From assembly GCA_008638375.1 (NCBI GenBank), contig CM018031.1, positions 7,154,062 through 7,218,061 of the forward strand: a stretch of 64,000 bases of DNA, given 5' to 3'. Position numbers and translations under genes: made by a program. Below are positions 3,408 through 40,500 of the stretch, in pieces (positions within the stretch are counted from its first letter, which is position 1; each line of letters opens with the position of its first letter). The stretch comes from Nyssa sinensis. Its lineage: Eukaryota > Streptophyta > Magnoliopsida > Cornales > Nyssaceae. The notes under the pieces were generated by a model that made no database searches, was not told the DNA's origin, and was given only the letters and a program-made list of their open reading frames with translations.

Positions 3408-4830
3408 ATGTCGAGTGCTCAGTATAATGCAGCTCAAACCCATGGTCAGGCCCAGGTAAGAAACATCGATTAGGTGATTTGTGTGTCATACTTATCGGAA
3501 TTACACCGAACCCGCTCAGTTAGAATCGGATATTAAACTTATTCGGTTTAATTAATATATTATTTTAATTGAATCACTTTTATTTTCTTTTCTTTTTAGC
3601 ACTTTCAATTTTTTTTCTTCACAAAATCTCTTTTGTTAATTTGTGATGAAATTTGAAAAGAGATAAAATATTATTATATATTTTTTTGTTATATATATAA
3701 ATATATAAAACAAATATACTAAGATCATCTCAATGATTATGCTCATAATTTTTTATTTATTACTAGATAATTAATATATACATATTATTTCTTGTTATTT
3801 TCTTAATTTTTAGTATATTTATATATTTTAAAATTGGTTGAACTATCACATGAACCAGGATATCGTGAACTGACTTTTTTACAGGTTCATTGTTTGGTTT
3901 AGTTTTGATAAATATGATATGTGTATATATAAATATATGTATTCTATTATGACCATTTTACCCTTGTATTTATGAAATTTTTACGGTTTTGTGCATTGTT
4001 GGCAGGCCAAGACAGAGGACTGGGTGCAGTCGGCCCAAAATACAGCAAATATGGCCTGTGACAAGATGGCGGACAACCCAGAGCAGGCCCAACGTGGGAA
4101 GGAGCAGAGTGCTGGATTCCTCCAGCAGGTTCAGCCCAAGCAATTATATTCTTTTTGTCAAAAACCTTTTTCGGCCTGAATGTGTGTGTGTGTAGGCTAA
4201 CTTGGGCTGGGGGCATGAGGTAGGCTTGGTTTGAGGTTTGTTTTGAACCAGCATGGTTTATGGCCCATAAAATTTTCTTGAAGTTTGGCCCATCAGTTGA
4301 CCTATGCCCACCCCAAAGAACAAAAAAAACCCTAAATTCCAAACTCTGGCCCGTTTGGCAGAGCATTTGAGATTTCTAATACAGAAATTTTTTGAATGGA
4401 TTGGCACTCCACGGGCCATGTGTGCTATGGCCTATCTTTTTTGGTGGGCCATAGTTCACATGGTAAATTGTTATTAAAAGAATACATTAATACGTGATGA
4501 TCCAAACCTACAAAAAAACATGCCTCAACAAACCCTCCTTAATTTCGTTACGTGTTTGTGTGTTCGTGTTAGGGGAATTGAAGGACCTATATAAAATTAT
4601 GATTTGATTAAGAAGTTTACGTTGCAATTTTGTATGTGTTGCAGACTGGAGAGCAAGTGATGAACATGGCCCACGGTGCTATAGATGGTGTGAAGAACAC
4701 ACTTGGAGTGAATAATGAGAAGAGCACACATGGACATGGACATGAAGTCAATAATGAAAAGAGCACATATGGACATGGACATGGACATGGAGTGAATGAT
4801 AAAAAGAGCACACATGGACATGGACATTAA
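3408..4830 (+). CDS. LEA/KIN2-like stress protein with Gly-His-rich tail (complete)
   Basis: Three exons, 3408-3455, 4006-4128 and 4645-4830, all with phase-0 GT-AG junctions, give 118 aa. Exon 1 (MSSAQYNAAQTHGQAQ) and exon 2 (AKTEDWVQSAQNTANMACDK to AGFLQQ) match the small hydrophilic LEA proteins of the KIN1/KIN2 and At3g02480 type, which share a SYQAGQ-like start, an amphipathic helix and a QxxGxxVKN end. Exon 3 continues TGEQVMNMAHGAIDGVKN and then adds a tail of three NNEKSTHGHGH-like units, longer than in typical family members of about 65 residues. The protein has no signal peptide or membrane segment and is probably cytosolic or nuclear. The likely role is protection during dehydration or cold; the His-rich tail could bind metal ions, which is inference. 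The start is the first ATG after the TATA box. The upstream neighbour is a tandem paralogue. Confidence 0.8.
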
Positions 4831-13521: not shown

Positions 13522-16500
13522 ATGGTATTGATTTTCTTTAATTCTTTTGGCTTCTTTATTATATTTGTGATTTCTTCATCTTTTTAGGTTGTTTCTTTCA
13601 CTAGTTTGCAGAAATGGAGAATAAGTTAACAGATTTGATTAGTTGTAAATCTTTTAATAAAAACTATGGGGAAATAGTGTGATCCTTAGCTTGAAATCAT
13701 AGATTCAATTTCTTCGTTTATGTGGGTTATTGTAAATTTGTTGAAAGAAGCTGTCTTGTATGTCATTGAAGTTATTCTGCCAAGCAGTATATTTTCAATA
13801 TGCCTATTCAATGAACTAATTGCATGGATTTCACTCAACCAGTTCGGTTACTGATAACAGAAACAAATGAGTAAGACCATTCCAGTGTTGCATTGGCGTG
13901 CTAACAATGCTTTCCAGTTCGGGATTTGTCTGTTTGACAAACTGCTTTGTTTTGATAGCTACATTTAGTTTCAGGTTTGATATAGTTGTGTAGCTTCCTC
14001 GGAACCAAACATTTGTTTATAAGTTTTTTTTCCCCCTTTTCCAAATCAAACATTATGAAAAAAGCTACCTTATTGTTGCTTAAAGTTAAAATATGCCGTT
14101 GGGATGGATCCAAATGGATATATGGCAAACCCTTGCCTGCTGTGCCAAAGTATTTTCCAGAAGGCACAAACTATAGTGCATTTACAAACTATTCCCTGAA
14201 TTTTTAAATTGGCTGAACATGCCCTTGGGATGTTCAGCCAATTTAGTTTCAGGTTTGATATAGTTGTGTAGCTTCCTCGGAACCAAACATTTGTTTATAA
14301 GTTTTTTTTCCCCCTTTTCCAAATCAAACATTATGAAAAAAGCTACCTTATTGTTGTCTGAAGTTAAAACATGCCGTTGAGATGGATCCAAATGGATATA
14401 TGGCAAACCCTTGCCTGATGTGCCAAAGTATTTTCCAGAAGGCACAAACTATAGTGCATTCACAAACTATTCCCCAAATTTTTAAATTGGCTGAACCTAA
14501 AGAAAACCAAAACCCATCAAGATAGTGATTTTTCAACTAATATAAAAGACCAAAAAATAGTAATCTCAAGGCACTGCTAAATAAAATGCATTTCATCCAT
14601 ATTTAGTAAAGCAACTCTTCTCTTCTCTTACCTTTGCATATTTTCTAATGGGGGACATTATGTTTGCTCAAGGAATTGTGTTGATGTTGGAATTTTTTTT
14701 TATGGATTATATTATAAGATGTGCGGATAGGCTCATCACTTAATCTTGTAGTTTACGTGATGTTATTTTAGAATCACCAGTGTGTAATGATGTAAGCATG
14801 CAATGCATTTTTGATAGCTTCATAATGTTTAGAGATTGCACCCTACTTCAATTGAGAAACATATTTATGATCTCATTTTTCATGCAGACGTTTCCAGGCA
14901 CTATTGTTGTTGGATCTCATGTTTGGGCGGAGGATCCCGAGGTAGCTTGGATAGATGGGGAAGTTGTGGAAGTTAATGATGAAGAGATTAAAATAAATTG
15001 TGAATCAGGGAAGACGGTGAGTGCTTCCTCCATAGCATTTATGTTAATTTCGTGCAATAAATTTGAGGTTTATTGTTTAAGAAATTAAAATTTATGTTAT
15101 GTTTGGTTTTGATTATTTTGGTTGATTTAATCAGTAAAAGTGATTAAATTAAATTTTGTTTTGAAAAATTTAGTTTGGTTAATCGAATAACAATGATTAT
15201 TTTATAATGAATTATAGAAAAAATCAATTAAATCACAATCAAGTCTTGTATTAATTATTTTTAAACAACTTAATACTTATAATAATTTGAAATTCAAAGG
15301 GAAACTACTTTTCGTATGAGTAATAACTGAACATTATCTTTTATCAAATTATTTAAATATTAATCAATTATATAATAATCACTTATGCAATAATCAAAAT
15401 GAGTTTAAAAAATCTAAACCAAGCATAACGTTATAACGTTACTCTTGTGAAGAAGTTATTGTTGTCCATTGCTATCCTATTTATCTGCATTTATGGTTTG
15501 ACGTATGATGATTGATGCTGATTTATTTATTAATTCATTTTTTTTCTCTATTGGTTATGGATTGAATGCTTTGCCTGTTGTGCAAAGATGTTATTTTCAA
15601 TGTTAGTGTGTAGTTAGACACAATGTATTATGTTGAGAGTCTTGAGATTTCATTTTGAATGCATGTGACATTTCACACGCCATCATTAAGTGATGTTTGT
15701 GTGCAAACTGCAAAGACGTTGGGTAGTTATGGGATGAATATTGTGATACACTTGGTAGAGAGTAGTTGGCCAGAGATTTTAACTTCTGCATGTATAGAGA
15801 GGGAGCGATTGTGTGTTTATGTTACTTCTGGTGCCAAGGTGCAACACTTAAATGGAAACCTTGAGGGAGCTTGGGAGTTGGTTTAATGCATCCACGAGGG
15901 GTGTTGGGGACTTCAAGCTGGTAAAGACCTTGCTCTGTCTTCAAGTTGACCTTGCTTCGTGAACGATGTTGCTGGAGGGCTAATGATGACCTGCATTAAA
16001 TGGTGGCCTTTAGGCTTGAGGCTAGAAGGCGTGTTCACATGTGCATGATTATATAGGTTGAGTGGTATGCATGTTAGTTGAGTGGGCTATCGGTGTGCTA
16101 TTGGGCTACTTGTGTGCATAACTTGGATGCTTGTCTTGGATTAGGACATACTCATAGGAATGTGTGGCATGAATGGCAAAATAGTGGGATGTGATGTAGA
16201 ACAGGTTGCCAGAGCTTGTTGGGACCAATTAAATCACCAACCCAATTGGTTGTTTGCAGAACCTCGACAACGCACTAGGAACTCGCCAACGTTGCCAAAT
16301 TCAACATGAAACACCCATGTCCTAATTATTTGTTCATGAAGTCTATTGTCAGGTCATTTTTTTTATTGACACAAAATTTGAGATGAAGATCATTTCTCAT
16401 GGATCTTCTTTTGTTTATTTCGCAGGTCATTGCTAGCACATCCAATGTCTTTCCCAAAGATTCTGAAGCTCCTCCATGTGGTGTGGATGATATGACAAAG

Positions 16501-19500
16501 CTCGCTTATCTGCATGAACCAGGGGTTCTGCAGAATTTAAGAAGTCGATATGACATGAATGAAATATATGTGAGTATTATTTGTCTGCACACCCCCCCCC
16601 CCCCCAATGCGGTACAGTTCATTTATTCTGGACTAGTATGTTATATTTCTCATATTGCATGATGTTGGCTCGTATTATAGTGCCTGGGCCAGCTGAGGAC
16701 ATGTGCTCTTCCTGCATCATATTTTGGATATCTTAGCTATCATTTTTGACTGTTCTGATCTATGAAGCTAACCACCTAATGGTGTGTCCAGACTTACACC
16801 GGTAGTATATTGATTGCTGTGAACCCTTTCCAAAGACTACCTCATTTATATGATAATCATATGATGGAGCAGTATAAAGGGGCAGGTTTTGGCGAGCTGA
16901 GCCCACACCCATTTGCTATTGCAGATGCTGCTTACAGGTGATCTGCGTGATATTCTGCTATCATTATCAGACATTTAGTGCTTTGGAATTTCTTGTGCGC
17001 CTCACAAACAAGAATGATTTGAATTCAGGCAGATGATTAATGAGGGAATAAGCCAGTCTATTTTGGTTAGTGGAGAAAGTGGAGCCGGTAAAACAGAAAG
17101 CACAAAGATGCTTATGCGTTATCTTGCCTATATGGGAGGGAGGGCTGCAGCTGAGGGACGTTCTGTGGAGCAGAAAGTCCTAGAGGTAGCGAAATATGAA
17201 GCTTTGTTTTTTGACTAGGTATCGTGTAAAGTTGATGATTCTAACATGGGATTGCGGGATTTTATGAATTCTGCTTGGAAATTAAACATGCACCATTAAA
17301 CAATTGCATTTATTTCTAGTTTTTCCTTCACCTTTGTTCTTTGTTTGGCAGTCTAATCCTGTTTTAGAAGCATTTGGTAATGCAAAGACCGTTAGGAACA
17401 ATAATTCAAGGTGGGAATACCTTCTCTCTCCCTGACTTCTAAAATTTTGTTTTGTATCGTCTGTTCACCTGATAATATTTTGACTCGTGAATGTTATATG
17501 ATTGCAGTCGTTTCGGTAAGTTCGTGGAGATTCAGTTTGATCAACGGGGGAGGATTTCAGGAGCTGCCATCAGAACCTATTTACTTGAACGATCACGTGT
17601 TTGTCAAGTGTCTGATCCTGAGAGAAATTATCATTGCTTCTATATGCTTTGTGCTGCACCACCAGAGGTAATTGGTCTTTTGCATGCTTAATGAAGTTTC
17701 TTCATGGAGAAATTGTGGTGCAGGGCAGTGTCCATAAAAGTTTATTAGTTCTTAGTGGTTGTGAGTGCAAATTTCGTTGTTAGCACCCACCTTTTAGTGT
17801 ATGAATAAACAATTATATTATCATATGGACTGGATATTCAACAAGACAACAACGTAACCCTACAAAGCCTTAAGTTCCAACTAAACTATAATGTCTTTTA
17901 TACAAAAAAGACAAAAGGAAATGTTATGCATGGTGGTTTGCTAAGGTGAACTTTCTTTTCCTTGAACTCAGTAATTAGCATTTTAGTGGTGTACCTGATT
18001 ACGACATTTTGTGCTAAACTCCAGGACTAGTAGCTGGTCTCATGGTTTGTTTGCATATCAACTGGGGTTCTGATGGACGATGGTGCAGATTACTATTTAT
18101 TATGATTCTTGCCTTAATGGAATAGGATTGTAGTTCTGCCCCATAAATTTATGTCAAGAGGATCTTATCAAAATTTTATGTCAAGAGGAATATTACACAA
18201 ATTAAGTGCTCTTTTACCAGTTTTTGGTGTTTTTGTGATGTGACTCACTTGGAGATTCTTGACTTGGCATCTATGCTGTTCAAGTGTTTGGAACGATTGA
18301 CATGAAGTCACAAGAACTGAGAGCAAAAAAGCTATTGCTTTTTTCTTTTTCTTTTTTTTGGTTAACTGAAAAGCTACTGCTTATTTTTTTATTTATTTTT
18401 TGATAGGTAAATCACACACCCACATAGCTAGATCTTGTTGGTATTTATTTATTTTTTGATGAGTAAAATTCTATTAAAGACTACTGAGGGTGGAACTCAT
18501 GCACACATGAAGTATAATGGAGTGCCAATAAAAGAGAGGATCCATCCTAAAAGCTAACAGCACTCTAAAAATCTGTAATGGTGCAACTGGATATGTGGAT
18601 TTGGAATGAAGGGATTTGAGGGTTTAAATTTACTAATTCATTGAAGATTGACTATTGGACTTGGATTAAGAGGCCCAAGGGGATGTTAAGAGTAGACTAG
18701 TAGAGTTAGGGCAGGTATAATTTATTTGGATCCTTGTGTGACTAAATACCTTTTTGGCATGGATTTTTAACAACTCCTTTCCCTCTCACCACCACTACCA
18801 CCACCCAAAAAAAGGGAAGAAGAACCCGACAAATATTTCATCTTATGTGGCACCGCGGTGGCAACTGCACTTCCTCATGGGACTGCCTTTATGTGCTTTC
18901 CAGATAGTCCATGTGAGGCAAAAAGGCACTGTTTCTCGCTCCTTTCTAACCCACTTTTTAGCATGGCTGCCTTGTCAACTAACTGTTGCCTTGACAACCA
19001 ATCTAGGTATTACCTAGTGAATCCTGAGACTTTGTTGAGTATGTTTCTCACATTATGAAATTTGATAATGCATTTATGACATTTCTGTTTCTTCTTGGAT
19101 ATTTTAAAATGATTCCTGATCTGGACACAATTGAGATTGGGAACAGGATACTTCCTTATAAAAGAAAAGAAAAAAGAAAAAGGGATTGGAAACAAGATGC
19201 TTCTTTTTTGTGTAACGTTCTTGATTTTCTACTTAAAAAATTGACAAATCCCCTTTGACGAGCATCTTAAATTTGGTACATTTTGATGTATTTGAGCAAG
19301 TTTCGAGATTTAGATGTTTGGTCCTTATATTAGTCTTCAACAGCCATGTGTTATCTAATATTATGCACTTTATTTATTTTTGAAAGTAAAGATGGATGTT
19401 ATCAGTTTGAGGAAATGTACAAGCTTACAAACGTAGGATGTTTGCTTTATTTGTGCTATTGTTTCATCATGTTTTTATCCTTTAACTAGAAAGGCTTATG

Positions 19501-22500
19501 TTTTTTGTTCCCTCTCATTATTGTTGATGTTACAATTGTATATCATGTGTTTTGTCCAATATTGGGTAATAATAGGGCTCATTAGCACAATGAACTCCAA
19601 TGTCGATGCTTGGAAACTCTTTTCTCCAAATCCTTAATCAATAATAAGATGTGTGAATTATTGCATTGTTTCAGCAGTAATAGAATGATAAGGAAATAGA
19701 AATGGAATGTTTACAAATTTCGGTGGATAATCACACTCACTGAATACTTTGCTGGAAAATTTATATTTGCAAGTTTACCTGTCTTCCCGATGTATTAGAC
19801 GAGGAGAATTCTTCACATTCCTTTAAGAATTGCTCAGTTTGACTTATTTGTTTGCTTTTGTTTAATTTTCTTCCAAAATTGCATTAGTTGTGTCAAGCCT
19901 TTAAATCTCCTCCTTTCATTGAGGAGTTGAACATCTTGGCAAAAGGAGGGGTGTCCACTCGAGTGTTTTAGAGGCCAGTTACATCCTCCTTGAGTTTGGT
20001 GTGGATGCTTGGTTGAGGGAGGTTTTCTCTTCAAGAGTGGTGATTTTACTTTCTTGTTCTGTGTCTTCTGCATTTTACTTAGTTGAAAGATGCCGCAAAC
20101 TTCTTTTATTTTTATATTCTCCCTCTCTCTTAATAAATTTATTTTTTTCATAAAAAAGAGTGAGAATGTGAGTGTTTGCTTCTTTTTGTTCTCATCTGAT
20201 CTAATACAGAGTAACGAAAGAGGAAACCCCTTTGTTATTTCTTGATTATATCAACAATTGCTGAAGTATCTTAGTTTACCTAAGGAGTTATAAAGTTATG
20301 TTTTTGCTAACCATCTGGAGGTGGGGACAATTAATGTATTCAATAGTCATAATGTATATAGCAATTCCAATAATATTATTCCGGCAGCTATCATGCTTAT
20401 AATTTCCAGGTCGAATTGATACTCATTCGATACATTGCTTTTGTTTGCTATCAGGATGTAGAGAGATACAAATTAGGAAATCCAAGGATGTTTCATTATT
20501 TGAATCAAACAAATTGTTATGAGCTGGATGCAGTGGATGATTCTAAGGAGTATATTGCAACAAGGAGGGCCATGGATGTTGTTGGGATCAGTACTGATGA
20601 GCAGGTAATGGTATCTAGATATTATATTTTTATTTTATTATTTTTTGGTAGAGATTTTTTATACCATACCTCAAAATTCCTTCTACAGGATGCAATATTC
20701 CGTGCCGTGGCTGCAATTCTGCATTTGGGCAACATTGAGTTCGTGAAGGGGAATGAAACAGATTCTTCTGAACCTAAGGATGAAAAATCCCGTTTCCATC
20801 TGCGAACTGCATCTGAGCTCTTCATGTAACTGTTCTTTTCCTTCCATTTATGCTATTCCAAATATTCACATCATTTTTTTATGTCCCGTGGGGTAGAGGG
20901 CAAATCCGTAATCTGCAAGTGTTCTTTAGGTGTGATGAGAAGTCTCTTGAAGACTCCTTGTGCAAACGTGTGATTGTAACTCGTGATGAGACCATAACCA
21001 AATGCCTTGATCCAGACTCTGCAGCTGTCAGTAGAGATGCCTTGGCCAAAATTGTTTATTCTAGATTATTTGATTGGTAAGTTTCAATTTGAAGGACACA
21101 TTTTGTATTTACCCTTCATTGCTATATCTGGTTTTTAATGTTATTGAGGTCTCTATCATTTGTTGACCCAGGCTTGTGAACAAGATTAACAATTCCATCG
21201 GTCAAGATCCTGATTCAAGATACTTAATCGGGGTTCTGGATATTTATGGATTCGAGAGTTTCAAGACAAACAGGTGCTTAAGCGGTATGCTTTTGTTTTC
21301 ATCATTTACAGAGGTTAAGTTCTTGCAGAACACTGCATGAAAGCCTTGTTTTATGTGATGGAAATATGCTAATAGATCCCCCCCCCCCCCCCCAAAAAAA
21401 AACCCCAAAAAAAAAAAAAAAGCTGTTAGTTGACTTATCATATGTAAACACAGACCTTTGTGCAGAAAGCTTTTGGCGATACCTCTGCTCTAGGCAGGCC
21501 TGGGTGCTTTTTTGTGGCTTATGGCTGCTTGCAGAGATATCTTAATGCTAAAAGATTTATTACATTATATGTAGAAGTATTAATGAATAGTTCTGCTTAT
21601 GTGAATATTTAATTGTTAAATTTTGAAGTTTGGCACAGCCAGTGCTTATTTTTGTTTTATAAATGTTAATTGGTTCTATGCAGCTTTGAGCAATTTTGTA
21701 TCAATTTGACAAATGAGAAACTACAGCAGCATTTCAATCAGGTTTGTGTATTAATTGTTTGCTTCATTGACTTGTAACATTCCTCAAAATTCCTAAAGCT
21801 GGTATGCTAAATTAATCTAACCTCAAATTTCACAGCATGTTTTCAAAATGGAGCAGGAAGAATATACCAAAGAAGAAATTGACTGGAGTTATATAGAGTT
21901 CATCGACAATCAAGATATTCTGGATTTGATTGAAAAGGTTTGTGTGTGTGTTTAGATTTGTTATATTCTCTATAACTTTTATTGCCATCTAATGTCAAAT
22001 TATTTCCAATTAGTGATTCCTTATTAAATGATGTCTTTAGGCAAAATTTAGTTAATTGATAGTCAAGATGTTTTAGATCCCATTGAAAAGGTCTGTCTGC
22101 ATGTGTGTATTCAGGTTACTGCCCCGAATGTTTTGTCGGCTTTTCTCTATATTGTTAATTAGCTTTGACTTTTCATGCCATCCAATGTTTAATTGGTTTT
22201 GGTTGGCAAACCCTTACTAATTGTGTCCTTAAGCTTATTAGATACAGAGGCATTTTTTCCTTTTCTCTTCTGTTTGCTTTTTGCTTGTCTGTTTCTCTTT
22301 TTTTATTTATTTCTATTTATTTTCTTTGTTTTTTTTTTCTTTTAGGGGGGGGGGGGGGGGGGGCGCAATTTACAGTTCCTTTTTACAAGAATCGCCCATT
22401 AAATTTCTTGATGGTATAGGAACCTGTTTGTGTTTTACTTTTCTAACTCTGCAGGTCTGCCCCTCACGATCTCTTTTTTTGCTTTGCTTTCTTTCTTTCT

Positions 22501-25500
22501 TTAGCGACAGCTGGCTGGTATAAGAGCATGTTGTTCATGTTTTAAGAGAAGGATGTGGACATAAGCTCTTAACTGTGTGACATCTGGCTCTATGGTTATG
22601 GCAGTTCTCATTTCATAACTAAAGTTTCTAACTTTATATTTCTAGTCATAGTTTTGCACAAGGGATTCTGTAGGTTATCTTTATAGATTCTGACTTTGCA
22701 TAGAACTAGTCAATGAAGAAATGGAACTGATTTGTGCAATTTCATGGAAGTTTTTGAAGCAAATAATCGAATTTAGTTCTGCAAGGTTTTTAAACTTCAA
22801 CTTTTGAAAATTTGACTGCTCTGGAAATGGAATTAAGTTATGAAACCATGGAGTTTTTACGGAATTCCAAAATAATGTGTGCAATTTCAATTCATGCAAG
22901 GTATTAAAATTAGCTTTCACCCTTGTATTACTATGTTTATGATGGAAAATGATCATGGATGTGAACTGGTCTTTTGATTGGTGATTTCCTTATTAATTTT
23001 ATCTGTGTTTTATCTTATTGATGTAACCGAACTGTGAAGTCTCTCTCACTCCCCCCTTCAATAGCCTCTTTGTATAGAACTGCAATAATTTTTTTCCAGT
23101 AGAGTACAGTCTAGCAGTTCTGACTTCACCATTTCCAACTATCTGATAATCATTTTTTCATTAGTTTGATTTTAGTGCTGTTTGCTATGTAATTTTTCCC
23201 ACGTAACCTATGATTGTATGCACAAGAAATCTAGGTAACAAGGACACTAACTTGAGTGTCATCATTTACCTTGGGCACAAGATGTGACATAGTGACCTCA
23301 TAATAAATGATAGATGACATGGGTGTTAATGTCTTAGGTGTTGTCTAACATGACATGCAAAAACATAGGCATTCCAAGATTTCTAATGTCCCCTTCTCCC
23401 TCCCCCCCAAAACAATTTGGAGGTGTTGTTTCGTTGTGATTCCTATGAGATTTTGGCTGTACATTTGTTGCTTTTAGTGGCAGTGATCTTATATTTGAGT
23501 ATCCCTATTTTCTTGTTTTTATATATTTTGCTTCATTTTGCCTTGTTTTCCTCTTCCGAGGAAGAGACCTAGTGTATTTCCAATGTATGTTGTTCCTGTT
23601 ATTGGTACATTTGGGTTTTATACCTCTAATATATATTTGTGTTACTTCAGAAACCTGGTGGCATCATTGCTCTTCTGGATGAGGCTTGGTATGTTAATAG
23701 AATGTGAAACAGCAATCCATTATTTCCTTTATTATATCATTTCAAAAAATCAATTTATTCAGTTCCTATACCTTTACTTGTAGATTTTGAGATGCTGACT
23801 TTCTTATTCTTTGTAGTATGTTTCCAAGATCAACACATGAAACATTCGCACAAAAGCTATATCAGACATTTAAAGATCATAAACGTTTCAGCAAGCCAAA
23901 ATTGTCACGTACAGACTTCACTATTTGTCATTATGCTGGTGACGTAAGTATCTACTTTTCATTTCAATTCTCATAGTGTTTTGCTAGACTCATGGCATTC
24001 AGACGTTCCAAAAACAGAGTAATAACTGTTTAATATATATTCATGGAGACAATTCTGATTTCAGGTCACTTATCAAACTGAATTATTTCTGGATAAGAAC
24101 AAAGATTATGTTGTTGCAGAGCATCAGGCACTCCTGCGTGCTTCAAGGTGCTCCTTTGTGTCAGGCTTGTTCCCACTCTTACCTGAGGAATCTTCCAAAA
24201 CATCAAAGTTTTCATCAATAGGTTCTCGGTTTAAGGTTTGATTTTGTTCTAATACTTTTGGTTGATTCAAACTGCCTGCTTGTTTTGGTCTCAAGTTTTA
24301 TTCTTATCCTGTACTTCATTCAGCAACAATTGCAAGCTTTGCTTGAAACACTTAGTGCTACCGAGCCACACTACATTCGTTGTGTAAAGCCAAATAATCT
24401 TCTGAAGCCAGCAATCTTTGAGAATTATAATGTGCTGCAACAGCTCAAATGTGGGGTAAGTTTAACACTTTAGAGCATTTCATGGACGCTATTTTACTAA
24501 TAAATATATTGCATCTGCATGCATTTTGAACTTGATATTTCTCTCTCCAGGGAGTCATGGAGGCAATTAGGATCAGTTGCGCTGGATATCCCACTAGGAA
24601 AACATTTGATGAATTCGTAAGTCGTTTTGGCATCCTTGCACCGGATGTTTTGGAGGGACGGTAATCACATTAACTCTGCTATAATTGTTTTTCTATTCCT
24701 ATGTTACTTGGATCATGTGGCATTAAACTCTTTTGAACTTTTTTCTTTCTTTCTAACAATTTACTTATTGATAGCTGTGATGAGGTCACCGCTTCCAAGA
24801 GGCTTCTAGAGAAGGTGGGCCTTGAAGGTCATCAGGTATATTTTATAGTTTTAGATATAAACTTGTTCTCAAAACAACATTGACGCAGCTTTACTTCTTG
24901 TTGATATATTATTCATAAATTAACAACTTCATTTTTTTGCTCATGCATCTCTGAATGAATGGATGAAATATTGTAATATAAGTTCTGCCCAAGAGGACTG
25001 GTATCAGTGTTTCGGTGTCCATTGTAAATGTTGGACGGTTATTGCATAGATTGGGGCATGTACTTGTGCACAATAAATGGGTTGTAGCCTTGTAGGTGTG
25101 TTATTAAATCTTTGGTAACCACGGCATTGTTAATTGTCAAAGTATCATATCTTTTTCCTTTACCCTGCAAAATATGATGTGTCCTGTGTAGTGTCTCCAA
25201 GTTGAGTACTTCAATCATTTTGAGATATTGATGTAATAACTAACATTTTAGAATGATCACTATGGAAGTTGTAGTGAATTAGGAAGATGTTATCCTGTGT
25301 GTTTGTTGAACACTTTCATTGTGCATATCTTACATCAGGCATTTTAGACAAATATCCCATGCCTATACTGATATCCTGTTGTGTCTGATACAAATACCTC
25401 ACCTATGTCAGTAAGTCCATTCAATGAAGGTCTGAGATCATTTTTGCAATTGCCCTTTATTCTATGCCTACTTATGAGATTTACTATTTTAATATATATT

Positions 25501-28500
25501 CTGATTTAGATTGCTTTGTTACATGATTCAATTACCTTCTGAGAAGATCTTGCAGGTTCAATCTAATTGATTCTTGGATATTGCAGATTGGTAAAACAAA
25601 AGTGTTTCTTAGAGCTGGTCAGATGGCAGAACTTGATGCTCGTAGGAGTGAGGTGTTAGGAAGATCTGCATGCATTATCCAGAGGAAAGTTCGTTCATAT
25701 TATGGACGCAAAAGCTTTATCTTGTTGCGGATGTCTGCCATACAAATCCAAGCTCTGTGTAGAGGTATTAAGTTGTGTTAGATGCATGCAACCTGGTGAC
25801 TGCCATGAGATTATGAGCTTGAGATTTTGTTGCCAACCTGTTGAATTTTACTTTTCACCTGTTATTCCCTCTGTGCTGGTTGCAGGGGAAGTTGCACGCC
25901 ATCACTACTGAGAACATGAGGAGAGAAGCTGCTAGTCTGAGGATCCAGAAAGAGACACGCATGTTCATTGCTAGGAAGGCTTACAAAATATTGTGCTCTT
26001 CAGCTGTTTCTATTCAAACAGGTATGCGTGGGATGGCTGCTCGAAATGAGCTTCGCTTCAGAAAGCAGAGAGCAGCTGCAATCCTTATCCAGGTAAAATT
26101 GAAATCCGTTGACTTGAAGAACAGCTGATAATCTAGGTCTTACAAGTCCTATGTTCCATGTTACTTTTCTTTTACTTTTCATATGTGAAACATATTCACC
26201 AAAATCCAATTAGTACAGTCAAAGCAAGCCCTGCTGGTTCATCTAGTTAGGAGCTAGATAGGTGATGGTGGTAGTTTTTTTTCGCCTAGGTGTGTATAGG
26301 GGAATAAGAAAGTGGTAGAGTGGCTGTATATATAATAATTATTATTTTTGATAAGGTAATGCAGCTGCATATAGGTAACTAATTCATTGGTTTTTTCCGT
26401 TTCTAAGTAAACATAAGTATATATTGTAACTTATTCTTTGTTATCTCCTCCCTTTTGGAAGGTTGTATTTATCATCTACCGTAAATTCTTTTTAAATTAT
26501 ATCCTGCAATTTGTGGACATAGTTATCATGTTTTGACATGTTCATCGGGGTGTGGCAAGCATTGATGCTATCGAAAAAATTTAAATGCTTGAACACAGTT
26601 TCTTCTGTGTGCATTTAAAGACACACACACACACACACATATATATATTTCTTGTTTAAGCATGTGTAAAACCATAGAGAAGAGAGTTAAAATGTTGTAA
26701 AAATAATAGAGAATTTATCAATTATGAGGTTAATGAGTTATGTAATTTTGAGGTTTGGGCTTTGTTAAGAAGAAAAAAATTGAGCTTTCCATCTTTTTGT
26801 TGTGTATGACTTTTGAGTTTAAGGAGTGCTCATAACCACCTACTTTAGGGATGTACTACGATATATGTCTTGTTTCTTTTGGTAAGTACCATAGTTCCTG
26901 GTGCAACTTGAATTTCCACAAATTACTTATTTCCTTCATGTATTAGTAACGACAACTTGTGCATGTTACATGCATAGTTTCAAGTACACTAAGAAGAATT
27001 TTATTTTGTTCATTACTTTGCCCATGGGGTTGAGTTGCTGTCATATTTTATGTAATTTATGCTTTATGTCTTTTACAGAGTCAATGCCGAAGATACTTGG
27101 CCCACCTTCATTATTTGAGGATAAAGAAAGCAGCAGTTGCCACTCAATGTGCATGGAGAGGAAGAGTGGCACGCAGAGAGCTACGGAATCTTAAAATGGT
27201 GAATTTCTTTTCCTTGTCTAGCATGTGTTCTTTTATTCTTAAGATTTAAGCTCTTCACTTTTGTTTGGTGTGGGCGTTCTTGTTCACTCACGATCATCTT
27301 TTCAAAATTTCTTCATATCTGGCAATGTTCTTTTGAAAATCGAAGTTCTATATATTTATTTACTTTGTTCGGGATAGAAATCAATAAGTTTAGGTCGTAG
27401 TCTGTTTAGATTGGTTATGAAATGGAAAATATGATGAAGCTCTTGGATAGATGAAGGGTTATGCAGCATTGATCCCTAGATTTGCTTGTATAATGTTGGT
27501 AATTTTGTCAAGCTCAAATATTTTGGCCTTCTTCATTCCCCTTTGCTCATGCATGCTCAACAACATGGGTAACATATGGCCTTTGGCTATGTAATCTCTT
27601 GTTGAATTAGTTTTATATCTTCTTTCGGGAAGTTGTGAACTTAGAACCATTCAAGTTGTTCACATCATTACCTTTTTTGTTCCTTGTGCTCGCGACAATA
27701 ACAACAACCATTTATAAAAAAATATCATTATCATTATGGGGCCATTAATTGGTGAAATGATAAAACGCTTGAACTGTGAAGTGTGAGAGCTCAGTTTCGA
27801 GCCTGGGAGTGCCTTGTGCGAGTTGGGAATATGCCTATCTGGTCTCCTTGTTTTAGAAGAGACTTCCTTGACTGGGAGCTTGAAGAGGTGGGATCCTTCC
27901 TTACTCACCTCAGTCAGTTTCATGCTATAGTAGGGAGGGAGGATAAAAGGGTATGGCTGCCATCTAAGGGTTCTTTTTCGGTCAGATCCTATTACAAGTG
28001 TTTGGTAGCCTCGGCAAACCCCCTTTTCCCTTGGAAGGTCATTTGGCATTCAAATGCTCCTCCCAAAGCCTCGTTCTTCGCCTGGGAAGCCTCTTGGAAG
28101 GCCATTTTAACTGCGGACAATTTGAAGAAGAGAGGCTTCCTTTTGGCTAGTAGGTGCTACCTTTGTCATATGGACGAGGAAAGGTTGGATCATGTTCTTA
28201 TGCACTGTAATGTCTCTTGGAGCTGTTGGAATCTGGTTTTGGCTCCCTTTGGTGTCTCCTGGGTTATGTCAAGCTCAGTTAAAGACCTCCTGCTGGCATG
28301 GATAGGGTGTCATCTTCCTAAGCAGATTAAGAGAATCTGGAGAATGGCCCCCATTTGCCTTTTGTGGTGCTTATGGAATGAAAGGAACAACCACGTCTTT
28401 GAAGATATGGAGCTTTCCATTCCTTTCTTTAAAGACGCGTTTTTGCGCTTATTATTTTTTTGGGCCAAAGAGGCTTTTCCTGTAAATGTCTCTTCTTTGT

Positions 28501-31500
28501 TCATTTTTTGGGGTCGTTAAGACCGATGTAAAGCTTCTCGGGATTTTTGCCCGTGGTGCCTTTCTTGGGCTCCTCTTTTAATATACATCTTTCTCATTAC
28601 TTATCAAAAAAAAAATCTGTCTCTAATCTACTCCTCCCAGCACCCTGCATAGGCAGGACCAAAATTGTTGTATTGGCCTTTTGAGATTATCATTGTCATT
28701 ATTATTATCATCATCATTATCTTATTATTATTATTTTTGGGCTGTTACTTGTGCTCACATTACCTAAAAGTGGTTATATATGAGAAGGCTTTGATTTTCC
28801 CCGTCTGCCTGTAGGCTGCTAAAGAAACTGGTGCTCTCCAAGCTGCCAAAAATATGCTGGAAAAGCAAGTTGAAGAACTGACTTGGCGACTGCAGCTGGA
28901 GAAACGCATGAGAGTAAAGATCTTCCTTTACAAATCTGCCATAGCTCAATATAGTTTTAAGTATTTTTTCTTGTCTATCCAAATAACTTGCAAGCATATT
29001 CCAGTGACATCTCAAGGATGCCTAACTTTTGAACTGGTTTCGGCTTTTGAAAGTTGGCATCAGTATTTTGTGATTGTGATTTTTACGTTACAGTCTGCAT
29101 GCTTTTTCAACCTCTAGAATTCTCTTCAATGGTATCTCCTCTATGTCCCAAAGTGGAGGTTGGGGGTTCAAGTCCTAAATGGGACAAAGTGGTTGTCTGT
29201 GTGTCTTATCAAAAAAAGAAAGAAGTTGTTTTCAACACTAATTCATTTGTCTATTTTCTTGACAAATATGGCACACTGGATGTTGAATTATTTTAGAGTA
29301 TGTTTTGTTGCCACATCTTTTTGAATTGTTTGAGTACTGATTTTGTGGACATATATTTTTCCTTGTTTCCATGAACTGTAGTGATATCTGCATATATAAA
29401 AAAATTGTCTTGTGAAAATTCTCTTATGTGGGTTATGTCAGGACATAGTCTTTTAGGCATCCATTTTTATTCATATCTTTCTTCTTTTCAATTGCTCACA
29501 TCTTTTCTTCCTTATTGCCTTTATATGGCGATTCTAGCTATAAGCCAAGATGCTTTAAATTTTTCCCGAGAAATTTAAGGGTTTTAAGGATTTCAGAGAG
29601 AGAAATATTGGTTGTGTTGTTCTACATAACCTACTCACCCCAGCGATTTATAATGTAAAAAGAGCAAAGGATTACAATATTGCCCTTAATGGAGTATTCT
29701 GGCATATCCCCGTAATATAACACAATAATAAACTGTAGAAAAAGAAAAAAAAATTTCTTACACTCCTCGAGGTGGAGCATATAGGTTAAATATGCCCAAT
29801 TTTGAACATAGATATTGAAGGTGGATCAAAGCAAAGATTTGATAAAAATATCATCAGCTGATCTCGAGAGTCGAGACTGATTTTAAAGAGTAATAATTTG
29901 CTTCTACATGATAAGATCCTAAATAAAATGACAATCTACCTCGATGTCTTTGGTTTGTTTATAGAGCACTGGATTGCTAGCAATGAAAATGGCTGCCTGA
30001 TTATCTCAATACATTAGCATAGGAGACATTGCATCAATATTGATATAACCAAATAAGACATGCAGTATAAGCCATAGCACGATATTCATTTTCTGCACTA
30101 GAGTGTGCCTCTACATTCTGTTTCTCATTATGCCAAGTAATAAGATTAGCACCAACAAATGTACAATATGCATAAATAGACCAGCAACCTCTATGGTTGC
30201 TTGTTGAGTCGGGATCTGAAAAACCAATAACAGACAAGGAGGATGACAGCCTACATAGCAATTCCCTACTTGGTGCTCCCTTAAGATATTGAAGAATACA
30301 ACAAAAGCTAAGCCTTCCAATAAGGTTATGCATAAACTGACTAGTTACACCAATGACATAAGTGATATCTAGACGTATCGTATGCTTGTAGTAAGATAAA
30401 TTAGCTTACCTATCAAGTTATCAACCTCCGATAACATCCCGTGTCCTTGAAGACTATCAATAGGATGAGCACCAAGTGTACCAGTCTCACAGAGTAAGTC
30501 TAAGACATACTTTTGCAGACACAAACTAATGAATTCTTCGGATTAGGCAACCTCAACTCTAAAGAAATATTGAAGGAGACCCAAGTCTTGCTGTGAAAGT
30601 GCTTACCCAAATGAAGCTTTAAGCTAACTATACTCACTGATTCACTGCCACTAATAATAATGTCATCTACATAGGCTAGTAAAGGTGTGACTCGGGCGGG
30701 CCAGGCTCAGGCTAGGTATGTCCAGGCCCAGTCCAAAATCTAAAACAATCAGCTCGAGCCTATCCCGAACTCGATATTAAGCCCCAATATCTCAACCCGA
30801 GTCCATTCAATCATAAATTCAGGTTACTTGGGTGGTCTGATGTCTGAATTACAAAATTTTATCTTCTCTCAGTTGAAGGATTTTAGACTAATTTTTTGTT
30901 GACAGTTGTCATAGCATTGACAGCCACACATTTGTCATAGAATTGACAGCCACAAAAGTACATTAAGGATGGAGGGAGGACTCTTTTTATAGAATTAAAG
31001 AACCCCTTGTATACCATTCTGCTTTAATGTGGGACATTTTCAAGACTCTTTATTCTTTCTCCTCTCCCCTCTCTTTTGGTGTTGTATCACTATCATCTCT
31101 CTTTCGGTGTTGGTAGTTTGAAATATTTAAAACCATCTCAGTCCCTTCTCTAAGAAGTCGTTCATGGGGTGGCAAAGCTCAATACTTATACAATATATCT
31201 ATAATTTTGTACATTTAATCTACTGATTATAATTTTCTTTAACCTGGACTTGGGGTGGGATACTTTTATCTACACGCCATACAGCAAGAACTTCAAAAGG
31301 AGAAACAATGGCCGGGGTGGCTGGGGTAGGTTTATGGTTGCCGTCCAAGCTGATTGAGAGGACCAATTCAATCTCATCATTATCATGATGTTCTTGCCGT
31401 TGTGTCCTATACATATCCTCTTTCAATGTTGCCATGGTTCTAATTCCTCCGGAGAAACAGGAGCTTAGAGAGAGAGAGAGTGTGTGCACAAGTACATTGA

Positions 31501-34500
31501 GACTGATGTACATAGGGAGGGAGAGAGACGGAACCCTAGGAACTCAATCCTTTACCCCGATGTTCTCGCCAAAGTACAATAACAATCCCAAACTCCTTAA
31601 AGTTATCCCACTTCGTGTATAAGTTTAAGTTGGATTTTATATTCAACTTCGCTTCACATTTCCCAAATGAACAACCATCAATGCCTTGTAACAATTTTTT
31701 TAAAGACAATAGATATATAGAACTCATGCTTGGGTTCTCGAAGGCTAGGCCCAAGCCCAACCCCAAATGAGGTTGGTTTTGAGTTTTCTTGCCTAGGCCT
31801 GTCCCCAATTACAAATAACACTGCCCAAACCTGAAAAAATTGGGTTGGGCTTGGATTAACCTGATTAAGTTGCACCCCTATAAACTAGCAGTTGAACCAG
31901 TGAATTGTGATCCCCCCTGCTGGTTTGGTTCCGTCCTGTTCTGATAACTACTATTTGTTCCCAGATTTGGGCCAACATAGTGGGGCCTAATCACTGTTGG
32001 CCTACTCTACAACTCACATGACCTATTTTAGTTGTTCTGCTATCTCCCCCATCCTATTTTGAAGTTTAAATTCAGCAACATGTTCTTAAGAGATAATACT
32101 CTTGTGATGGTTGCCACTGGAATCCTCCTTCCCATCATCTACGTGAGGAGAACATGCTTGACCTGTGTGAGAAGCACCTTTCCTTGAGCCATCCATCTCG
32201 ACAATTCAACTTTCCTTTCTTTGATCTGCCTTGATCACCTCAAAATGGGGTGCCTTTTAGCCCATAGTGGGACTATGAACCTCAAAAACCCCCTCCCTGA
32301 TGCCAGGTCATTGCTGAAGGAGCCTTGCCTATTGCTTGCACCGAGATTTGAGCCAACAAAGATGATTTTGGCTTGCCATGTCTCCATCAATGCCATGAAG
32401 CCTCCATCACTATCCCCTAGAGCGATGAACATCTCTATACACAATAAGTGCAGGAGAAGTCCCTACAATTTTCACCCAAATCTTAAACATGTTGTTGGTG
32501 CCCACTAGTCCAAGAAGAGACCTCAAACACCCTATTTGCTTCTGCCATAGATTGAAATTCAATGAGGAAAAAGCCCCATTCACACCAACCACTCTAACCT
32601 AAGCCAATGTCTTCCATCTCTGATCAATCCACAATTAGAGCTTGTTTTGCTCTGCCACTTGCAAGTCTCCACCCTATCCACTAAACAAATCCTTAGGCAG
32701 TCTTTCCTTGCAAGAGTCAAAGTCGACCAGCAGATCACCATCTTTATCCTTGAAATTTCTCACAATCTTCACTGGCTTCAATGTCCAATGATTTCTGTAA
32801 CTCGCAAGTAAGCCCTCTGGTTGCTTGTCTGTGGGGTTTTTAGTCCCCCAGTTGTGTGATAATACACTATGCCCTCATAGCCCCTTTCATTTGTCACCTG
32901 ACTCACCTATGGAATGAACATGCAACTTAGGGTTTCTCATAGACTTCCACATACACAAATCAAGCTCTCCATTCTAGTTATGGATTACCATAAACCGCCA
33001 TTCTCTCTTCCTGAGTGACTTGGTGAAAACCTCATCCCTCACTTTCAAAGTTCAATCTAGTGATTCAAAGAGCCATTCTAGCCTTCACAATTTAATACTG
33101 CTTGTTATACTGGCCCCTCACAGTCTAACAGAGCTTGTTGGACCAGCCTCTTACCTTTTTCAACAAGCTGGAAGCGATTACCAATTGACTCACCTACATC
33201 GATGTTCTCAAAGGCTTTGCACACTGCCTGAACACTTCATCTCCCTCCTTAAATCAATGTGAACCAAGTTTGGTCTGTCTCTAGTCCACACTGCCCAGCA
33301 TCCTGCATAAGCACGACCAACACTGGCTAATGACCTTTAGATATTTGTCCTTTTCTAGTAAGTTTGGATATATTCTTCATTGAAGTTAATTATAAGCCGG
33401 CTAAGTTACTATAATACATATATTGTTTATAAGGTAATAAGTAGCTTCTTGTTGCTTATACATTTAAATTTAATGGGTTTCTGTTACTATTGATGAACTA
33501 TGTCCTTTTAGCTTATTTATTTATTTGGAATACTCAACTCAACTCACAAACCCTTGTCCTAACTATCTGGTTTGGCTATGCGATTCCTGTTTTGCTATTC
33601 TGCTATATCTAAGGTCATAATCATAGTTAAATCATGTGTTACTATATCTTTTCTTACTCTCTAAACTCATGCTTAATTTTGCTAGTCATCTTCTCCTAGC
33701 ATTATCCTTAAGGTGGACCATGTCACTCTAACATTACCCTCAATAACCCATATGGTCAATCCACATTAGTTGGTTTCCTCTCATTTTATCTCCAATTGTG
33801 GTACTTCCACCATATCATGAATTCTAATTCTATCTTTTACATCCATCTTAACATTCAAATTTTTTTCACGTTCATTCTCTGATTGTGTTGTTTCCTAGTA
33901 ATCCAACATTTTGTCCCATAGAGCGTTGCTGATCCAATTGCTGTTTATAAAAATTTACCTTCCAGTTCTAAAGGTATATGCTAGGCTTATGAATTGAATA
34001 AGGAAAAACAAAAAAAAGGGAAAAAAATAGAATAACAAGCAGCAGCAGCAGCAGATTGATGTGCTTCTTATTCATGTTTCCACATAATTGTAATTGCTTT
34101 TTGTTATTGCTTATTTCTGATTGTTGCATTCACTTCATTATTTGTAGGCTGACCTTGAGGAAGCCAAAACAAAGGAAAATGCAAAATTGCAGTCTTCTTT
34201 GCAAGAGATTCAGCTTCAATTTCAAGAAACTAAAGAACTACTTAATAAAGAACGCGAGGCTACAAAGAAAGCAGCTGAGCAGATCCCTGTCATACAAGAG
34301 GTCCCAGTTATTGATCAGGAAATAGTTAATAAGCTTACTGCTGAAAATGAAGAACTAAAGGTAAGGTTGCTGGGAGACCAGTATGTTTATTTCTTCTTGA
34401 CTGGACCTTGCATTGCTACTTGCACTATGAGGCATTTCAAATGCATATATGTGGATATGGTAATTTTGGATTTAGTTTTGTTGATATGTTGCTTACTTTG

Positions 34501-37500
34501 ACACTTCTCAGGCTTTGGTAAGTTCACTAGAAAAGAAAATCGATGAAACAGAAAAAAAATATGAAGAAACGAACAAGCTTAGTGAAGAGCGGTTGAAGCA
34601 GGCTTTGGAGGCTGAGTCAAAGATTATTCAGTTGAAGACTGCTATGCAGGGGTTGTTACAGTGACAATTTAATCCTGCTAAGTCTTGTCAAGTTGCAGTG
34701 TTTTTCTTTTTCGCCATGTGAAGTTGAAATGAATATGGAACATATATCCTTTGTAATTAACTTAGACTTGGTTATTCTGTTTTGAATTGTTGTCTTTTTA
34801 TCTCAGGCTTGAAGAAAAACTTTCTGATATTAAAGCTGAAGACCAAGTTCTGCGGCACCAAGCATTGTTGAGGACGCCTTCTAGAAAAATGTCAGAACAT
34901 TTAGCAAATATAACAACTCAGGTTAACATGCCACCGAAAATGTCTTTCTTGTTTTTTTGGTTTTTTGGGGATTTTTTCTTAAACTTTTATTATTTGTACT
35001 TGCAGCCTTCAGAAAATGGTTATCATGTGAGTGAACAACATACAACTCTCATAATTTATTTGGATATTTCTTTTCAATGGTATCCATATAGATGTTGCTT
35101 TATTTATTTCCCTCATCATAACCACAGAGTGCAACACCTTCAAAGCAGTTTGGTACAGAATCTATGAGGAGATCACAGATTGAAAGGCAACATGTATGTT
35201 CTTTAGGAGAGAATTGAACATTCTTTCTCTATGTTCTATTTTATTCCATTTGAGTTAATTCTTTTGCTCTCTTTAATTTATTTGGATATTTCTTTTCATT
35301 GGTATCCATATAGATGTTGCTTTATTTATTTCCCTGATCATAAAAGTAGCTCTCTTCTACAGGAACCACAGAGTGCAACACCTTCAAAGAAGTTGGGTAC
35401 AGAATCTATGAGGAGATCCCAGATTGAAAGGCAACATGTATGTTCCTTAGGAGAGAATTGAACGTTCTTTCTCTATGTTCTATTTTATTCCATTTGAGTT
35501 AATTCTTTTGCTCTCTTTAATTGCCGAGAAAAGGTAGGAAAGGAGAAGAAAACTAAAAGTTTGATTCTGCAACTTGCATTGTCTCGGTGACATGGTCCTT
35601 TCACTATGTGTGGTATCTGCGTTTGACGTGATGTGACTATGGTTTTCCTTTTCTTCCACCACCAGCCTATTTCTCAAATATATCTACCATCCGAAAATTT
35701 CCAACTGGAGTGTACAAAAAGGAATAAAGAAAAACATTTAAGTTCATGCGAAATTTTATAGGATACCTTTTAAAATTGTATCATTATGGCATGGATATTT
35801 TGGGAGCATAACTACCCATGTCTAGCAATCAGGCTTTAAAACTCCATTTTATAACGAGTAAAGAGGAACATTATTGGTCACAGTAATCATTCAACTGTGA
35901 TCTTTTGGTCCTGATATCTAGGGATTGTGTGAGTTGACACCTAGACACATCCATCCAACACTTGTTATTGAGTTTATGTAACTAGTGGATGTTGAGAAGA
36001 ATAAAAAATAGAAAAAATCCAGCAGAGTCTATTATACCTGGCTTAATCGAGTTAATTTTATTTTCTTTCCTTCTGCTTTCTCAGCAACTGAATGGGGAGT
36101 GATGGTGAAGTTTAAATTAATTCATTGTTATATTGATATATTTTGTATGCTACAGGAGAATGTAGATGCTCTTATCAAATGTGTGACTCAAGATCTTGGG
36201 TTCAGTCATGGAAAACCAGTTGCAGCATTTACCATTTACAAATGCCTTCTCCATTGGAAATCTTTTGAAGTAGAAAGAACCAGTGTCTTTGATCGTCTTA
36301 TCCAGATTATTGGTTCTGCAATAGAGGTAACTTGATATACGTAACACAAACAATCCTTCATTTCAGCAAATGCGAGACTTAAAGCAATTATTGGAGAATT
36401 GGGACAGAATTACCAGAAAACTTTTCCATGGCAATCTGCTAGTTTGGATTTCAGAATCGTAGCTGTGGTACATTTGTATTTTAGTATGTTAAATTTATAA
36501 AGCAAGATACTTTCTTCTCTCTCTCTCTCTCTCTCGTGGAAACAGCCTCTCCCCTCTCGGGGGGGTAAGGCTGCGTACATCTAACTCTTCCAAGACCTTG
36601 CAGTGGCAGGAGCCTCATGCATTGGGCTAGCTCTTTTGTTTCCTAGGCAAAGGTTAAAAATACGGAAATGATGCTCAATAGGGTTAAGAGTTTTGAAAAG
36701 CTAATGGCCTGGAGCAAAATGGGCTTTCTCCCCTTCCTATTCCTCCCTTTCTTTGTTCAGCTTTGAATTGTCCCCCCCCCCCCCCACACACACACTGTTT
36801 TATAGAACTCCACTTTTTTAAATTCTGAAGTACGAGGGTTTCCGCTTTGCGATAGCCCATGTCTATTAGTTTTTGGCATGTTTTAAATGCTTACATTAAT
36901 TGTAAACATAGATGGTTTGTATTTCTTAATTTTGCAAAGTTGTATCAGGAAGAAAAAAATAATTTTGCTTTCTGCTTAATATTTAACGTACATTTGTTTG
37001 AATTTTCATTGAGTAGAGGAAGCAAAAATAATTTTTCTTTCCACTTTTCACATGTATTTGTTTGATTTTGCATTTTGAGTCCAGGAAATTGAAATCTAAC
37101 ATGCTCAATCTTATATATCTTTTTCTGCAGAACCAGGAGAACAATAATCTTATGGCTTACTGGCTGTCCAATACATCCACATTGTTGTTATTGCTTCAAC
37201 GAAGCTTGAAAGCTACAGCTTCAACTTCACAGAAACCACCCCCTCCAACATCATTATTTGGGAGGATGACTCAGGTAATGAGATTCTTATTGACTCATTT
37301 ATTTTACGTTCTTATGGTTTTCTTTGCAAGATATGCACATAAATGATTGTAAATTAAAATAAATGGTTTTCACTGAAAATTCTTCTAAAAGATCACGTAT
37401 AATAATACCGAATTTAACATATCTTCAATGAAATTTGATTAGGACAAACCATATTTTTAATAGGTTGATATGTTTTCAGGGATTCCGATCATCTCCTTCT

Positions 37501-40500
37501 TCTGCCAACCTCTCAGTTGGTGGCCAGGTTGAAGCCAAGTATCCAGCTTTGCTTTTCAAGCAGCAGCTTACTGCTTATGTGGAGAAGATATATGGGATTA
37601 TTAGAGACAATTTAAAGAAGGATTTGTCATCACTTATTTCTTCTTGTATCCAGGTACAATGCCGTTCCCCAAAGTTTGATCCTTTATTACTCTGAAAATT
37701 ACTCCCTGTAATCTTAGGAGCTTTTTGGTTTTTATTTGGATGTTGTTTTCCTTTTTTTTTTCTCGTTAACTTTTCCCCCTTTCTCCTTCACATATATCTT
37801 ACTGTGAGTCTGTTTAAGTTTAAAGAAATAAATCCTTTGTTACAAAAGTTGGTGGAGATGCCATCTAGAATAGTGTTGCATCATGTATAGGGTCTAGTTC
37901 TAAATTTTTGCTTATTTTGTTTACTTTCTCTTGCTTTCCTTAAAACTAATTAATATTGTCAATATATTAAGCTTTTGTTTATTGATTAAGTGGAGAATGT
38001 GTCTTTTTTGATCCACTATGTTTGGCCGGGTTCAAAATCTTGCCCTATACTGAGTTGACCTGGCCTTGTCAACTTGGAATCGCTGCCATCCATTTTGATA
38101 CCGAGTAATGAAACAAGTATATCACAAAATGGGCATGAATCGGGTATTTTAGGCTTGACTTGGATTGACTCGGCTGAATCAATTGTTTATTTAAATGAAT
38201 CGTGAGACGACCTGCAATATGACTGAGTCTCCCCGAGTCAAATCGTGGGATGTATTATGTCTTGGTCAGCTGCCAAATGGGTTTCATAAGGACCCACCAA
38301 CAATTTAAACAAAGGAAGCCTCGGGTGCAGTTTTCTTCTTGGTTTTTATTCAATTTTAAGAATTGGTCTTCCAACTTCCAACTTAATACATTTATTGAGA
38401 ATCCCATCAAAAGTGAAGACCTTTTTTGGTTCTTTTATATATATATATTACTCTTATTAAAATTTTGTAAATCTGATTAATTTTAACAAAGATTCATTGT
38501 CATTGTAGACTAAGCCAAGGATCAAAATTTTGTTTCGTAGTGTTGTTTCGGTCACCTAGAAAACAGAAACATTTCGGAAATGCTTCGGAGATGTTTCAGA
38601 AATATAGTGGAAACGATGAAAAAAATTAAAATGTATAAAAACATTTGAAAATATAAAGTAAAATATATGAATGTGTAAAGATAAATATTATAATTAATTG
38701 AAAATGTTTTAGGGTACATGTTCATACATACAAGAAGATACTAGGGTGACATTAAAAAAAAAAACGTAAATGTTAATTAGTTATTAATACTAAATAACTT
38801 TTTTCTTATTAAAAACTAGTATAAAATATTTTGAGCTAATTTGTTTATGTAATATGAATTTATTATATATTTGCTATGAAACATGTAAAATTATTATAAA
38901 GTATAAAATAATAAATATATATATATATATATTGTGTAATATCCACAAATTAGATAATTTGACACAAGTTACATATAATATAATAAGTAAAAATATAGTA
39001 GTTTAAACCTATTATAATTAGTAATTAAGTATTAAAATAAATTATTTATCTACATTTTATTTCCACTACTTTTACTTTTCATTGTCTACTGTTTTTGAAA
39101 ACTAGAAATATCTTCATATAATTTTGGGTTTTAATCTTTCAATCTCATCCATTTAAAAAACAAATGAATATTATCTTTTAGTAACTTGTAGAAGTATTGC
39201 TGATACCAAAGAAATGTTTCCATTGTTTTGGTGTATTTTCACTAGTTTCGGTATGTTTTTACGGAAACAACTTTGTTTCTATAAAAACATATTTCGATAT
39301 TCCACTAGTCTTTTGTTTCGATTCACTAGGAAACAAAAACGTTTCGTCCGTTTTGATGGAAACCATGCGAAATCTTGATCCCTGGACTTAGCCTAGAGCG
39401 TAGAACTAAGGGGGGAACCATTGTAGATTTAAGTGTTTTGTATGAGATAATTTAGATCTCTGTATGCATGCATTTTTTTTTCTTCTGAAACATATAAACA
39501 AATTCAATTTTTGAATAGTCTTTGAAGATTGTAAATCTATAGTGTAACCAAAAAAAAAATGAAAAAAAAATGAAGCAAAGTCACATATCTAGTTTTGCAA
39601 TTTCTCCAAAATATGTTGAAATCATTAATTTTTATAATCTCTGTATTTTTTTTTTAAATTTTGAAAGTATATAAAACTAACGAAAACATCATTACTAACT
39701 ATATGAAATTAAATGACTAAATGATTTTTCACAACTTTAAGACATGTTGAATTCTAATAAATTGCAAGAAAACCACATGTTTGCCTTACAAACTCTTCAA
39801 GAAAAGTTTATTTTTGTTATTTTTGATTTTAAAAAAATAAAAAAATAATTTAAAGAATTAAATGAGTCAAGAAAATTGTGAGATACGTTGAAAAATTAAT
39901 AAATTGCTAGAAAATTCTATATTTGCTGCGAATTTCGAAGTGTAGATGAAAGTTGGGGTGAAGACTATTTGAAATGATGAAAAGGTGTTGACAATGAGAA
40001 TGTAATATGTATATATTTCTGAATTATTTTGAATTTTTATTATGGACTATAGAGTGTTAAGTAATTCATGAATAGAATGGTATATAGTACCTGTATTAAT
40101 CTATATTATATATTCTTTATGTTTAATTTAGTTCTTTTATACATTTATTTTGCTACCTCTATTATTTCTAAATTTTTCATAATTTTTTTAGAATTTTTTA
40201 AGCCTCATTTGTAGTATGTCTTTGTGTATTGCCCGATTCAGTTCCCAGATGCTGGGATTAAGGCCGCCACCCCCCTGCAGGAGTTAGCAGCTTGTGACCC
40301 TTGGGTTTTGGTGTGTTTGTTCAATCTTTTTTGGGCTGTATATAAAAGCCAAAAACTAGGTCCATAAAAAAATATTCATTTTTTAATAATCGTATCTCAT
40401 GAATAAGCCTCTTCTTTTGATCCATAGGCTATATGCAGGAATTATTATTACTGCAATCTAAAGTTGCAAATTCATGCCACCAATTTTTGTTACCCTTACA

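Follow-up and report, generated by a model that had tools for sequence, protein, structure and literature searches.

Is the class XI myosin gene that lies in a 64,000-nt stretch of the Nyssa sinensis assembly (the window, C1:7154062-7218061 of a 1.0 Gb assembly in 211 contigs) cut short in its neck by a single excess base, or does the published sequence misreport a working gene? We find that the excess base is very probably an error in the published assembly, and that the tree's own gene is probably an intact, full-length class XI myosin. The features of the window on which this answer turns are as follows.

14909..45621, plus strand: class XI myosin gene with 38 modelled coding exons (from spliced alignment, the exon table and Pfam)
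25587..25764, plus strand: the 178-nt exon preceding the lesion, coding for the end of the motor, IQ1 and the start of IQ2
25886..26092, plus strand: the neck exon (exon 21 of the first-pass annotation), 207 nt where the family length is 206
25908..25909, plus strand: the CT doublet that carries the one-base excess, placed by alignment with the C22 duplicate; putatively one Tyr codon of two alleles
25909..25911, plus strand: the in-frame TGA made by the excess base
25924..25925, plus strand: an AG proposed as a rescue acceptor, a poor match to the modelled acceptors
27079..45621, plus strand: 18 downstream coding exons for the end of the neck, the coiled coil and the cargo-binding DIL tail, all open

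The gene model was built by protein-to-DNA spliced alignment, with several tail exon ends placed by eye. It holds 38 exons without the start-codon exon, which sits further upstream, and the first modelled exon probably starts at 14888. Once one base is skipped, these exons give 1486 codons with zero stops, and the excess at 25908-25909 is the sole lesion in the model; a second model, guided by a Cornus florida protein, contains the same single lesion. Every modelled intron is GT-AG, a regularity that is partly built in, since the aligner sought these dinucleotides and some tail exon ends were set by hand. The first-pass annotation had described 18 exons downstream of the lesion with open frames and splice sites, and the exon table contains exactly that number. 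Pfam searches of the part up to the stop found Myosin_head (PF00063, 847.8 bits), Myosin_N (PF02736, 43.6 bits) and an IQ match, and searches of the annotated tail protein of the locus found IQ and DIL. The gene has the features of class XI myosins, namely a motor with an N-terminal SH3-like domain, IQ motifs in the neck and a DIL tail, with a putative coiled coil between neck and tail recognised by homology to other myosins. As assembled, however, the reading frame from motor to tail is not continuous and is broken at 25909-25911.

The window also holds repeats and further open stretches. Two direct 256-nt copies (13963-14496, 96% alike, spacing 278) precede the first exon of the myosin model. 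An open stretch of 246 codons in the intron after exon 27079-27198 (27780-28517) encodes a zf-RVT domain (PF13966) and is probably the remnant of a LINE-like retroelement. A tandem duplication at 35052-35522 (two 159-nt copies, 97% alike, spacing 244) carries two copies of a short, variable myosin tail exon. Outside the myosin gene, an ORF at 54503-55648 has FMO-like and pyridine nucleotide-disulphide oxidoreductase domains, and we take it to be probably a YUCCA-type flavin monooxygenase gene. Two similar open stretches at 147-395 and 4612-4827 consist of His-Gly-rich repeats, and Pfam gave no match for the one at 4612-4827.

The neck exon is entered in phase 1 and lies between the acceptor TTGCAG (25880-25885) and the donor GTAAAATT, which begins at 26093. 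Its in-frame reading is GEVARHHY followed directly by the TGA, just as the first-pass annotation had reported. The same annotation gave the exon 207 nt against an expected 206, and this too agrees with the exon table and with the C22 duplicate and other XI genes. The homologous exon measures 206 nt in six of the seven other modelled XI genes, and in the seventh, C12b, it measures 207 nt through an insertion of its own, so the excess goes beyond chance. The preceding 178-nt exon has the same length in the modelled paralogues. The earlier claim went one step further and named T25909 as the extra base; the one-base excess stands, but the sequence does not single out that T. The extra base could be C25908 equally well or better, because the C22 duplicate reads CTA-TGAG at the site where the window copy reads CTACTGAG.

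We compared the gene with its copies in the same genome and with relatives in the databases. After the window itself, the closest match to the queried exons plus intron lies on contig C22, at 87% DNA identity, and the other five matches stand at 73-85%; on these figures we rejected the idea that the excess base came from a recent duplicate. The neck exon of the C22 duplicate has 206 nt. From the 144-nt exon onward, its model made with a window-guided query contains zero one-base events, the tail exons that the aligner had misplaced were found open on direct search, and the published C22 protein (F0562_035289) reads through. In a variable tail exon of this gene the second model places a single deletion of one base, which we take as a misalignment. 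Among 3171 database relatives, the 120 best all align gaplessly over 43 neck residues that span the site; the residue found there is Y in 110 of them, F in 9 and H in one. These relatives are predicted proteins, so broken models would be under-represented among them.

Synonymous divergence from the C22 duplicate (dS) is 0.26 upstream of the lesion and 0.30 downstream. The ratio dN/dS is 0.147 over the 18 exons upstream and 0.215 downstream, where 13 of the 18 exons, those with pairable lengths, were taken in; the neck exon alone gives 0.287 over 68 codons. Coding sequence in the tail has therefore been conserved ever since the gene was duplicated. A pseudogene would be expected to have relaxed constraint and further lesions, and we found one lesion in 38 exons with the dN/dS values just given. 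We rejected an old pseudogene, since the model has no second lesion and the sequences on either side of the first remain constrained.

One-base insertions also occur in three more of the XI genes. The one in C1b falls in the 61-nt exon and the one in C18 in the 171-nt exon; C12b has two, in the neck exon and the 222-nt exon. These genes lie at the following positions.

C1 61.66-61.70 Mb: C1b, myosin XI gene with an insertion
C18 1.11-1.14 Mb: C18, myosin XI gene with an insertion
C12 4.15-4.18 Mb: C12b, myosin XI gene with insertions

Over 23 conserved exons of eight XI genes (8 x 2,957 nt) we counted five one-base insertions in four genes and, in any model, no one-base deletion, a rate of 1 insertion per 4.7 kb of conserved exon. 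At this rate the probability of at least one insertion in a coding sequence of the length of the window gene is 0.61. The remaining four XI genes have no event in their conserved core exons. The count is confined to the eight modelled XI genes, so that the class VIII genes and a class XI-like locus on contig C2 fall outside it. In C12a the second query reached the later part of the gene only, and the neck-exon event of C12b was missed by one alignment and found by two other analyses. The second model yielded eight further one-base events (3 insertions and 5 deletions) in C1b, C7, C19, C18 and C22, all in start exons or fast-evolving tail exons. Because none of them was reported with another query, they were read as misalignments and were not counted.

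Frame breaks were also counted in two intronless families, GRAS and KCS, after pairs whose gap was as large as an intron (2 in GRAS, 5 in KCS) had been set aside. The 110 GRAS match rows yield 16 frame changes that are not of intron size. Of these, 13 are net +1, a class that frame alone does not separate from net -2. KCS has 5 such changes in 46 match rows, two net +1 and three not, so that this family by itself has no +1 bias. For the two families together 15 of 21 changes are net +1 (p 0.039 against an even split), and with the five myosin events the figure is 20 of 26 (p 0.005). Several of the split rows contain stops, and some of the splits in these two families may be genuine pseudogenes. 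A background of frame breaks in the Nyssa sinensis assembly is well supported by these counts, and their bias to +1 is moderately supported.

The bases at the insertion sites have a pattern of their own. In the window, C25908 and T25909 can be understood as the third bases of two alleles of a single Tyr codon, both written out (TAC/TAT). Judged by eye, a silent transition written twice also fits the insertion in the 61-nt exon of C1b (G/A) and that in the 222-nt exon of C12b (C/T), and the one in the 171-nt exon of C18 can be read either as a silent A/G doublet or as a longer A run. The T/C doublet in the neck exon of C12b would swap Val and Ala and is not silent. At four of the five myosin sites the doublet is thus readable as the two bases of a silent transition. 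Among random insertions, which we enumerated, 16.9% look like silent-transition doublets (p 0.0035 for four of five), and among insertions that extend no run the expectation is 21.7% (p 0.009). A plain error in an A run may account for the C18 insertion; when this site is excluded as a fit, three of five sites remain and p is 0.037. Six GRAS junctions, from a total of 18 pairs, were inspected by eye: two doublets were clear silent transitions, two were ambiguous and two did not fit, and one of the ambiguous junctions could be a 2-base loss.

Extracts of the published account of the genome describe an assembly of PacBio Sequel reads (99x) with FALCON, polished twice with Quiver and once with Pilon and then treated with Purge Haplotigs, from a tree with a heterozygosity of 0.87% (PMC6877568). 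The setting is that of haplotype merging, a PacBio assembly of a heterozygous diploid, and the same extracts describe no phasing. The excess base is most likely an artefact of this kind, at a site where we infer the tree to be heterozygous. Two alleles would differ at the third base of a single Tyr codon (TAC and TAT), their PacBio reads would have been collapsed, and the consensus would have kept both third bases as TACT. Pilon would have missed the excess because the base that conflicts with the reads and should be removed would be a different one for each haplotype, leaving Pilon presumably unable to decide. As a counterpoint, polishing by Pilon with Illumina reads (about 56x) should clear many plain errors. 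In 12 papers found on Quiver and heterozygous sites, no title or abstract opening says that both alleles are written.

The first-pass annotation had offered a very recent mutation, an assembly or sequencing error and a bypass as three ways to understand the site. An assembly error gains from the comparison, and we favour it because one-base insertions recur in the assembly, the rest of the gene looks intact and the assembly method fits; bypass by splicing loses. If the frameshift were real and very recent, whether heterozygous or fixed in the tree, the gene would be null, with the message lost by nonsense-mediated decay and the loss covered by the C22 duplicate and the other XI myosins. With so close and apparently intact a duplicate (87% DNA identity over the queried exons plus intron) the loss of this myosin would be tolerable, and an otherwise intact gene is what a very recent event predicts, yet four of the eight XI genes would then need independent and equally recent one-base insertions, the conserved exons of the insertion-bearing genes have no stop mutations or deletions, and the two sides of the lesion are under constraint of comparable strength. 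We therefore consider a null allele unlikely. Nonsense-mediated decay is to be expected for a stop that precedes 18 exon junctions, and for this reason the stable motor with two IQ motifs that had been suggested as the product is a weak proposal even if the base were real.

Two further explanations accept the base as real and let the cell pass it. Splicing to the AG at 25924-25925 would skip 40 nt and about 13 residues of IQ2-IQ3, and the frame arithmetic given in the first-pass annotation is correct, 40 being 1 modulo 3. This AG has no pyrimidine tract, however, and with an acceptor matrix made from the 179 modelled acceptors, the same set serving as yardstick, it scores -9.1, below all 179 (median 9.1), where the normal acceptor scores 11.1. 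The rescue is unsupported on account of this score, and it would also fuse parts of two IQ motifs whose full spacing is kept in the best 120 of 3171 relatives; we find it barely credible. Among the AGs in 25884-25954, the frame-restoring exon starts at 25926, 25929 and 25953 score -9.1, -5.5 and -6.5 against the normal 11.1 and were rejected, and inspection by eye of the region near the normal donor of the preceding exon found no frame-restoring alternative donor. A ribosomal +1 frameshift at TAC-TGA, by which a plant nuclear gene with a broken frame would still yield full-length myosin, is likewise barely credible. Skipping one base at the stop would yield the conserved Y-E-N-M directly, and we take the site to be formally like the +1 frameshift site of antizyme, so that a slip is formally possible, with nothing beyond this geometry to support it. 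The C22 duplicate lacks the extra base, and by eye the other myosin insertions have no immediate stop and no evident common motif.

An assembly error at this site would leave a biologically ordinary picture, probably an intact myosin gene viewed through a faulty base. In the public annotation, the protein at the locus (F0562_000592) is a tail-only product of 721 residues that begins MFIARKAY within the neck exon, after the lesion; it includes both copies of the duplicated tail exon, one of them reading SATPSKQFG... The protein F0562_002361 is likewise tail-only (787 residues) and begins MAELDARR in the exon following the C1b insertion. With two myosin XI genes annotated as tails right after insertions, claims of gene loss or of headless myosins that draw on this annotation need to be checked against reads. 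If the figure of about one insertion per 5 kb found in conserved myosin exons holds widely, many Nyssa sinensis gene models will be split or truncated. Extracts of the genome paper indicate that base accuracy was gauged by SNPs (PMC6877568), and a check that counts SNPs would miss one-base insertions.

Comparable errors have been described in other assemblies. According to parts of the text of Korlach et al. 2017 (PMC5632298), the merging of haplotypes in early FALCON introduced indels where haplotypes differ. As far as those parts go, the case is like ours in being a diploid FALCON assembly with merged haplotypes and indels at the nucleotides that distinguish them; in Nyssa, by contrast, heterozygosity at the site is inferred, and the doublet in which both bases are kept is our present reading. 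In Trypanosoma brucei, passages of Cosentino et al. 2021 (PMC8445201) report indel errors and truncated ORFs that stemmed from allelic variants lying close together where a long-read assembly had been collapsed. These apparent frameshifts in a collapsed assembly resemble the Nyssa case; the organism and the polishing chain are different, and there, in the same passages, reads and phasing demonstrated the errors. Among known proteins the closest comparison is with the plant class XI myosins named myosin-6 and myosin-8 (for example in Cornus florida and Malania oleifera), which likewise have a motor, IQ repeats and a DIL tail. The Malania oleifera myosin was compared directly at the lesion site, and in contrast to these myosins the window copy has one excess base in the neck exon.
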